Positions 23,923-26,232 of a stretch of 64,000 nucleotides of DNA are shown here, piece by piece. The first letter of the stretch is position 1. Every line of letters begins with the position of its first letter. The translations under genes were made by a program, and so were the position numbers. The stretch is from Microbispora sp. H13382 (GTDB lineage: Bacteria; Actinomycetota; Actinomycetes; Streptosporangiales; Streptosporangiaceae). The notes beneath the pieces were generated by a model. It did no database searches. It saw only the letters and a list, made by a program, of their open reading frames with translations, and was not told the DNA's origin. The stretch covers positions 1-64,000 of the forward strand of contig NZ_JABBXA010000027.1 of the NCBI RefSeq assembly GCF_014161445.1, given 5' to 3'.

Positions 23923-24126
23923 TCCCGCCTTCGTGCCGGTCCCCGTCGTACGGCGACCGGTGCCACCGCCTGCCCTCGCTCGTGGTGCCCGGGCGGCAGG
24001 CTCCCGCGGGTGACGCGGAATCTTCCATCCTCGTGACCGTCCACGGCTCCGCTGTGCTCATACAGCCTGGACATGCGTCGCGAGCTGTCAGGTAACCCCC
24101 TAGAAGAACCACTAGGAGCATTCATC

Positions 24127-26232
24127 ATGCGAACGTGGGCGAAGGGCTCGGCTTCCGCGGCGTTTCTGGCCGCCGGCGTCATGGCCCTTGGCAGCGGTAC
24201 GGCTTTCGCCGACACCGACGGCAGCCATTCCGTACTCGGCGGCAACCAGGTCGACATCCCGGTGACCCTGCCGATCGACATCAGCGGCAACGCGGTGGCG
24301 GTCGTCGGCGAGTCCCGGGCCTCCTCCCTGGGCGGCGCGGCCGTGCAGGGCGCGGGCGTGGGCGCCGGGCAGAACAAGACCTCCGGAGCGGGCAGCATCC
24401 TCGGCGGCAACCAGGTGGTCGCGCCGATCAACGCCCCGGTCAACGCCTGCGGCAACGCGGTGTCGGTCATCGGGCGGTCCGACGCGAGCTGCCGCGGCGG
24501 CGCGGCGGTCAAGGGCTCGGGACAGCGATCGAGCGCGGGCGGCAACCGCACCAGCGGCGTGCACAGTATCGGGGGCGGCAACCAGGTGGTCGCGCCGGTC
24601 ACCGCGCCGATCAACCTGTGCGGCAACTCGATCGCCGTGTTCGGCGACGCCACCGCCGGGTGCCGTGGCGGTGCCTTCGTCGGCGGCGGCCGTGACGGCG
24701 TCCGCGCCGGCGGCAACCGCACCAGCGGCCGCGGCTCGATCCTGGGCGGCAACCAGGTGGTCGTCCCGATCACCGCGCCGATCAACGTCTGCGGCAACTC
24801 CGTCGCGGTCATCGGCGAGGCGTTCTCGGGCTGCCACGGCGGCTCGTCCGTGGGCGGCTCCGGTGGTCACGGTGGTCACGGTGGTCACGGCGGCCATGGG
24901 GGTCACGGCGGCCACGGCGGCCACGGCGGGTACGGCGGTCACCACGGAGGCGGTCACACGCACCGCCCCGGCTCGACAGGACACGACAACGACGGCCGCT
25001 TCTCGGTGGGCAGCGGCACGCAGGTGGTCGCGCCGATCGTCACGCCGGCCGACGTCTGCGGCAACGGCTCGGGCAACTGCCAGGGCGGTTCCAAGCCCGG
25101 TCACGGCGGCAAGGGCGGCTACGGCGGCCACGGTGGCCATGGTGGCCACGGTCACGGCGGCTGGTCCGGCGGCGGAGCGGGCGGCAACCGCACCAGCGGC
25201 GTGCACAGCGTCGGCGGCGGCAACCAGGTGGTCGCGCCGATCACCGTGCCGGTCAACGTCTGCGGCAACGCCGTCGCGATCGTCGGCGACGCCTTCGCGG
25301 GCTGCCGCGGCGGCGCGACGGTGGTCGGCGGCTGGAACAAGCACGGCGGCCGGGGTGCCGGCGGCAACGTCACGTCCGGTCGTGGCTCGATTCTCGGGGG
25401 CAACCAGATCGTCGCCCCGATCACGGCCCCCGTCAACGTCTGCGGCAACGCGGTGTCGGTCATCGGCCGGTCCCAGGCGGGCTGCCGGGGCGGCGCCTCG
25501 GTTCTCGGCGGCGGGGTCGGCGCGGGCGGCAACATCACCTCGGGCAGGCACGGGATCCTCGCGGGCAACCAGATCGTCGCCCCGATCACCGCGCCGATCA
25601 ACGTCTGCGGCAACTCGGTCGCCGTGCTCGGCGACGCCGCCGCGGGGTGCCTGGGCGGTGCCCAGGTGGGCGGCGGCTGGAAGCACCACGGCTACTGGGC
25701 CCACCCGCAGCACAAGGCCGCCCGCGGCGCGGTCATGCCCGCCATGCCGGGTGCGTCGGTGCTGTCCGGCAAGCACACGGTGCAGCCGATGAGCGCCGCC
25801 GCCGCTCCCTCCGCTCCGGTCATCGGCGACCTGCCGAACATGCTCGGCCTGCCGGAGACGCCGAGCCTGCCCGGCGCCCCCGCGGAGAAGGGGAACAAGG
25901 CCGGCAGCACCCCGGCGGCCGTCTCCAAGGCCGGCGGCGTGCTCGGCGACGCGACCCGTACGCTGCCCGCCCAGCAGACGCTGGAGGACGCGACCGCCTC
26001 GCTGCCCGTCGCCGACACGGCGCGCAGCCTCCCGACCGGCGACCTGAGCAAGAGCACCGACGTGCTGCCGCTGGGCAAGCTGAGCGGCCTCAAGCTGATG
26101 AGCGCCGAGCAGCCCGTCGGCCTGACCGGGATGAACCCGGCCTCGTTCCTCGCCCTGGCCCTCGGCGCCATGTTCGCCGCTTCGGCGAGCCTGTTCGCCG
26201 TCACCCGCCGCTTCCGGTTCGGCCGCAAGTAG
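24127..26232 (+). CDS. Giant chaplin-like surface protein with eight repeats and Gly-Gly-His blocks
   Basis: A 701-residue secreted protein. ATG 24127 follows AGGAG by eight bases, and the signal peptide ends near GTAFADTDG. Eight chaplin-like units follow, each with GNQVVAPI then (V/I)N-x-CGN and a second cysteine about 14 residues later in (S/G)C-x-GG. Unit 1 lacks cysteines and unit 5 is degenerate. Between units 4 and 5 are seven consecutive GGH triplets (about residues 246-266) and a further His-rich tail; a second Gly/His block follows unit 5. The C-terminus is Pro/Ala-rich and ends in a membrane helix and RRFRFGRK tail. No clean LPXTG/LAXTG is present, although PVGLTG precedes the helix. 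Streptomyces long chaplins have two such domains, so this is greatly enlarged. Expected role: hydrophobic or amyloid surface layer; histidines suggest metal binding. Confidence 0.85.
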   Translation: MRTWAKGSASAAFLAAGVMALGSGTAFADTDGSHSVLGGNQVDIPVTLPIDISGNAVAVVGESRASSLGGAAVQGAGVGAGQNKTSGAGSILGGNQVVAPINAPVNACGNAVSVIGRSDASCRGGAAVKGSGQRSSAGGNRTSGVHSIGGGNQVVAPVTAPINLCGNSIAVFGDATAGCRGGAFVGGGRDGVRAGGNRTSGRGSILGGNQVVVPITAPINVCGNSVAVIGEAFSGCHGGSSVGGSGGHGGHGGHGGHGGHGGHGGHGGYGGHHGGGHTHRPGSTGHDNDGRFSVGSGTQVVAPIVTPADVCGNGSGNCQGGSKPGHGGKGGYGGHGGHGGHGHGGWSGGGAGGNRTSGVHSVGGGNQVVAPITVPVNVCGNAVAIVGDAFAGCRGGATVVGGWNKHGGRGAGGNVTSGRGSILGGNQIVAPITAPVNVCGNAVSVIGRSQAGCRGGASVLGGGVGAGGNITSGRHGILAGNQIVAPITAPINVCGNSVAVLGDAAAGCLGGAQVGGGWKHHGYWAHPQHKAARGAVMPAMPGASVLSGKHTVQPMSAAAAPSAPVIGDLPNMLGLPETPSLPGAPAEKGNKAGSTPAAVSKAGGVLGDATRTLPAQQTLEDATASLPVADTARSLPTGDLSKSTDVLPLGKLSGLKLMSAEQPVGLTGMNPASFLALALGAMFAASASLFAVTRRFRFGRK
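24862..24957 (+). repeat. Gly-Gly-His coding microrepeat inside the chaplin-like gene
   Basis: Nine-base units coding Gly-Gly-His occur seven times in a row from 24862, then one Gly-Gly-Tyr, then more His-rich codons. Units differ at third positions (GGT/GGC/GGG, CAC/CAT), so the protein pattern seems selected and the tract is not a recent slippage product. A second, shorter block is at about 25096-25160. Confidence 0.85.

Follow-up and report, generated by a model that had tools for sequence, protein, structure and literature searches.

Work on how chaplins build a hydrophobic coat on aerial hyphae comes from Streptomyces, in which genetics is hampered by eight overlapping genes, and the canonical chaplin domain contains three GN motifs spaced 12-13 residues apart. 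The long chaplins ChpA-C were described as carrying two domains and a sortase signal in about 225 residues, and one or two units per chaplin is the Streptomyces picture (PMC5618241, PMC8166509). The two cysteines of chaplins are considered to be joined in a disulfide important for function (PMC5618241), and the C-terminal domain of ChpB was reported to lack cysteines (PMC13251363), as does the first unit of the protein described here. Chandra and Chater noted that Streptosporangium roseum, among others, has chaplin-like proteins, and the available part of that article did not describe their architecture (PMC4255298). No description of a multi-unit chaplin architecture was found in the literature searched, the scope of which left out most subscription papers, and a Planobispora rosea omics paper contained no mention of chaplin, DUF320, aerial or sporulation.

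The window, that is the whole stretch of 64,000 nucleotides of Microbispora sp. H13382 DNA that was analysed, contains a gene for a 701-residue protein that we call polychaplin, a name coined in the present analysis for a multi-unit chaplin-like protein. The whole product matched PF03777 (ChpA-C) with 154.4 bits in seven stretches, against a cut-off of 21, single units scored 24.9-35.2 bits, and a profile search identified this as the sole PF03777 gene in its genome. The repeat count gave eight units and 14 cysteines, two in each of units 2-8 and none in unit 1, and together with the PF03777 score this bore out the eight chaplin-like units that an earlier note on this DNA had reported. The two cysteines per domain of canonical chaplins are present in seven of the eight units, with a spacing of 14 residues, or 7 in the degenerate unit 5. 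An alignment with a canonical domain (locus L007, genome G057) placed GN motifs 1 and 2 and the first cysteine in register, with the second cysteine lying nearer; the two GN motifs of the units are 15 residues apart and the third is replaced by GG. The Pfam matches of the units covered about positions 4-49 of the 57-position model, and the G057 domains extended to position 57. Given this replacement of the third GN motif, we filed the protein as a variant and not as a canonical chaplin; judged by alignment, the repeats are a shortened variant of the chaplin domain, and canonical chaplin behaviour is not to be assumed for them. Most units open with an invariant N-x-T-S/D-G motif (N140/T142, N197/T199, N414/T416 and N469/T471), which is possibly a turn or a glycosylation-like site.

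Table 1. Positions in the window of the polychaplin gene, its parts and its upstream elements, with the basis of each assignment.
Feature	Position	Strand	Basis
Upstream gene, 208 residues, one predicted membrane segment	23296..23922	+	alongside polychaplin gene in 78/80 loci
GCGAGCTGTCAGG element, conserved, upstream of polychaplin gene	24080..24092	+	about 38 bases before start
Ribosome-binding site AGGAG	24114..24118	+	sequence; kept in upstream alignment of 24 species
Polychaplin gene	24127..26232	+	
Putative signal peptide, residues 1-28, predicted cleavage after AFA	24127..24210	+	inspection; model helix 10-21
Chaplin-like unit 1, no Cys	24211..24372	+	PF03777 match 24187-24309; alignment
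Chaplin-like unit 2	24373..24543	+	PF03777 search; alignment
Chaplin-like unit 3	24544..24714	+	PF03777 search; alignment
Chaplin-like unit 4	24715..24861	+	PF03777 search; alignment
Gly/His spacer 1, (GGH)7 at 24862-24924	24862..24984	+	sequence; length and GGH number vary between species
Unit 5, degenerate and shortened, Cys 7 apart	24985..25092	+	Cys positions; alignment
Gly/His spacer 2, (GGH)3 at 25123-25149	25093..25185	+	sequence
Chaplin-like unit 6	25186..25365	+	alignment
Chaplin-like unit 7	25366..25530	+	PF03777 match 25339-25470; alignment
Chaplin-like unit 8	25531..25680	+	PF03777 match 25513-25632; alignment
Pro/Ala/Leu-rich linker	25681..26091	+	alignment; low AlphaFold confidence
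Conserved tail LMSAEQPVGLTGMN, membrane helix (26137-26205) and RRFRFGRK	26092..26229	+	alignment (14 genera/species), hydropathy, motif counts

The open reading frame obtained by mechanical calling starts at 24073, and the start at 24127 was judged better because it is preceded by AGGAG and because the M-R-T-W that it opens is invariant in 45 aligned relatives. In 72 of the 76 loci examined, TCAGG was found in the 80 bases before the start, usually between -32 and -45, compared with 297 of 4000 random 80-mers used as control, and the 13-mer pattern GCGAGCTGTCAGG had a single occurrence in the whole genome. No Rfam families were found around the gene. MtrA was considered as a possible regulator from a GGTAAC upstream of the gene, which we take to be an MtrA half-site, and was set aside given that the match is a half-site only. 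Chaplin gene levels were described as dropping in an mtrA mutant of S. coelicolor (PMC5650626). On inspection the N-terminus has typical n- and h-regions and an AFA-D c-region, and from the look of this signal peptide we infer that polychaplin is exported.

The nearest named relatives (M. siamensis, M. rosea, M. catharanthi, M. sp. H11081 and M. bryophytorum) showed 85-90% protein identity. PF03777 was found in 15/15 Microbispora genomes searched and 98 of the 99 matches fell in the orthologue of the polychaplin gene, the exception being a 1309-residue frame in genome G006 that matched weakly (E 3.5e-4); no short chaplins were found in 15 Microbispora genomes. From 172 confirmed places in named genomes 80 loci were kept, nearly all from Streptosporangiaceae (Microbispora, Planotetraspora, Nonomuraea, Acrocarpospora, Herbidospora, Sphaerisporangium, Streptosporangium, Planomonospora and others), and two alignments were used, A1 with 45 sequences out of 81 available and A2 with 14. 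The gene was neighboured by topA in 79/80 loci and by an M20 peptidase gene in 57/80, some loci ending at contig ends. The product of the 208-residue upstream gene had no match in Pfam or NCBIfam, its C-terminus was almost invariant in the alignment (PPVVRTAADDPSFSP), and it is a possible partner of polychaplin. Relatives mostly contained 7 or 8 units, with a range of 5 to 10 in complete genes, as counted with a regular expression that misses degenerate units. Comparison of these sequences indicated that the architecture, the tail and the neighbourhood are conserved across the family. In the order Streptosporangiales, PF03777 was present in 273 of 297 genomes, often with several matches per frame of 350-860 residues. 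Databases probably hold multi-unit chaplin-like proteins as automatic annotations.

An isolated new kind of protein was rejected as a description of polychaplin because relatives occur throughout the family, and the new kind of surface layer protein suggested in the earlier note was not supported as an isolated kind, multi-unit PF03777 genes being common in the order. The statement in that note that known chaplins have one or two units is true of Streptomyces and not of Streptosporangiales, and the search of other actinomycetes that it had proposed recovered the units, tail and neighbourhood across the family, with a GGH run that varied. Two further chaplin-like genes were observed. The multi-unit gene at L045 (G021) has mostly Cys-free units, up to nine in a 609-residue frame, with ENESSGDGS linkers, and L017 (G015) has a long tandem Cys-rich stretch of the CTGxNCPPK type followed by a His-rich segment and then LPFTG.

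The seven consecutive Gly-Gly-His triplets reported earlier are present at residues 246-266, with a second block, (GGH)3, at residues 333-341, and the two spacers flank unit 5. Among 2000 shuffled versions of the protein no GGH run exceeded 2, a length that four of them reached, which argues that (GGH)7 is not due to chance. The GGH codons of the block (GGTGGTCAC three times, GGCGGCCAT, GGGGGTCAC and GGCGGCCAC twice) do vary at third positions, where GC content was 0.62 compared with 0.93 for the gene, and the nine-base units of the block are partly identical. The earlier note had read this variation as selection on the protein, and judging from the codons expansion of a 9-base unit fits at least as well. 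In the ten named Microbispora loci where the gene is intact, the longest GGH run was 4, 3, 5, 1, 3, 1, 1, 0, 2 and 2 (L072-L078, L083, L108 and L124), and outside the genus it was mostly 0-2 with a maximum of 4 in Nonomuraea pusilla (L125); the run is the least conserved part of polychaplin. Spacer 1 was compared in 18 of 27 rows, the other nine being left out of these statements, and measured 21-40 residues with 4-11 His in Microbispora; in Acrocarpospora and Herbidospora it had 17-18 residues and a single His, while G019 had a long Gly/Pro spacer in place of Gly/His and spacers in other genera were K/P/G or short. A Gly/His-rich spacer at this site is thus retained in most Microbispora and mostly not elsewhere. 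A hinge drifting by repeat expansion would account best for the GGH variability. The earlier note had made its proposal depend on the GGH block persisting in orthologues, where the run proved to vary and was sometimes 0, and metal binding by the block, which it had also proposed, was rejected as a conserved function given these run lengths. As far as sequence comparison goes, the polychaplin architecture is real and widespread in the family and the GGH run is a variable spacer.

At the C-terminus a hydrophobic stretch (residues 671-693) is followed by the basic RRFRFGRK, and a motif search of polychaplin found neither LPXTG nor LAXTG, the sortase motif of long chaplins, with VGLTG at that place; this agrees with the helix and basic tail without a clear sortase motif described earlier. 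Tails were counted in the 75 of 80 loci where they were readable, leaving out the three Actinoallomurus loci, which lack the motif, as well as L147 at a contig end and L088 with its run of N. Position 5 of the tail pentapeptide was G in 75/75 and position 4 was T in 71/75, position 2 was G in 70 tails and S in the other 5, and one of A, V, L, I and M occupied position 1 in 66; P or A at position 2, and hence LP or LA, occurred in 0/75. Conservation of the tail equalled that of the repeats. The LPXTG_anchor model gave a best E of 0.1 and also fired in controls. Five sortases are encoded in the genome, one of them class E (225 bits against a cut-off of 160, with a hand-typed query sequence), and two LPFTG-tailed proteins are encoded about 1.6-3 kb from the class E gene. 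At this place (L188, G000:C23:148500-156500) the two proteins are secreted and have acidic linkers, and they may resemble the surface proteins linked to sortase E in Actinoplanes. The tail was also considered as a shared sorting signal and rejected, given that a tail profile found no second protein in its own genome (next best E 0.32) and only two weak matches in 396 phylum genomes (E about 5e-4), one of them a 77-residue frame.

AlphaFold models had a mean pLDDT of 44 for the whole protein with 45 sequences and 49 for units 1-4, and both contained regular short beta-strands in each unit at low confidence; the only long helix was at residues 671-693. A PDB search with the whole-protein model returned no significant structural match, the best E being 0.066, with beta-helices filling the list, and given the low confidence and the lack of a better match no fold was assigned.

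We consider it reasonably probable that Microbispora has its chaplin-type surface coat in one polypeptide, this secreted multi-unit chaplin-like protein, based on the PF03777 score, the sole such gene, the 80 conserved loci, the paired cysteines and the variable spacer. After removal of the Sec signal peptide, the two cysteines of each of units 2-8 would form a disulfide, and the Gly/Asn/Val-rich units would adopt beta-structure and associate within and between chains, which by homology to chaplins might cover aerial hyphae or spores with a layer of hydrophobic or amyloid-like character. Flexible hinges would be provided by the Gly/His spacers on either side of degenerate unit 5, their length and composition drifting via repeat expansion, the linker would span the wall, and the C-terminal helix and basic tail would hold the chain in the membrane, as suggested by the lack of LP or LA in all readable tails while the genome pairs its class E sortase with two LPFTG proteins. 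In Streptomyces the same job is split between short chaplins and two-unit wall-anchored chaplins. Counted against the coat reading were the low-confidence models, the lack of a fold match, the missing third GN motif and the T in 71/75 tails, where the retained T-G leaves room for sortase attachment.

The truncated Pfam alignments of the units, their missing third GN motif and the lack of an assigned fold speak for a commonplace wall protein of low complexity that is secreted and has an adhesin-like or structural role, its chaplin similarity not implying chaplin function. This is improbable, however, given a Pfam score far above the cut-off, paired cysteines and two GN motifs in 7/8 units, and conservation throughout sporulating genera. 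The Gly/His blocks could instead be a metal switch in which Zn(II) or Cu(II) on the GGH run triggers fibre formation. Shepherin I, with six adjacent GGH, was reported to bind Zn(II) and Cu(II) and to form fibrils only with Zn(II) (PMC10698721), the polychaplin block is very similar to it in composition, which makes metal binding chemically plausible, and most Microbispora retain a Gly/His-rich spacer here. However, the run drops to 0 in some relatives inside and outside the genus, other genera have K/P/G or short spacers, and the block codons resemble 9-base expansion, so that a switch appears very improbable.

The tail could also be a working but altered sortase signal (hydrophobic-G-x-T-G-M-N) with covalent attachment to peptidoglycan as in long chaplins. 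The order of motif, helix and basic tail matches that of sorting signals, T and G are largely kept behind a mostly hydrophobic position 1, a class E sortase is encoded in the genome, and the corresponding position in L064, a relative belonging to a different family of the order, reads LPVTGLN, because of which the tail is probably derived from a sorting signal. We nevertheless hold a working signal to be unlikely, given that position 2 is G or S in every tail, that T is replaced in 4/75 and the motif is wholly gone in three Actinoallomurus loci, that searching the genome with the tail profile brings up no second protein and that the sortase-linked neighbours carry LPFTG instead. A membrane anchor is therefore favoured from the motif counts, P and A being always missing and T not strictly kept, and the conserved non-LPXTG tail raises the question of a new sortase specificity versus a sorting signal turned plain membrane anchor. 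More tentatively, and with somewhat less than even confidence, we propose that Microbispora swapped a multi-gene chaplin coat for a single-chain coat with eight shortened units and an altered or abandoned sortase signal, and that one deletion would remove the whole layer. If this is the sole chaplin-type gene of Microbispora, a single deletion would give a chaplin-free strain, and unit number, cysteine pairs, spacers and anchor could all be varied within one gene.

Among known systems, shepherin I shares the run of GGH triplets and is otherwise a 28-residue plant antimicrobial peptide without chaplin units. CwpA and CwpB of Actinoplanes missouriensis are, as polychaplin is proposed to be, hydrophobic surface proteins of a sporulating actinomycete, and were described as tied to a class E sortase, sortase-dependent and without chaplin domains (PMC13251363). 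The short chaplins ChpD-H share the chaplin-type hydrophobic unit but have one unit and no anchor. The LPVTG-tailed chaplin-like proteins of other Streptosporangiales (L060, L062-L064 and L066) also have several PF03777 units per secreted chain but differ in having four or five units, acidic linkers (except L064) and a canonical LPVTG. Compared with the long chaplins ChpA-C of Streptomyces coelicolor, polychaplin has eight units in 701 residues, lacks LPXTG/LAXTG and the third GN motif and has its cysteines 14 and not 18 residues apart, but shares with them a putative signal peptide, the repeated paired-Cys domains, the linker and the hydrophobic segment with a basic tail.
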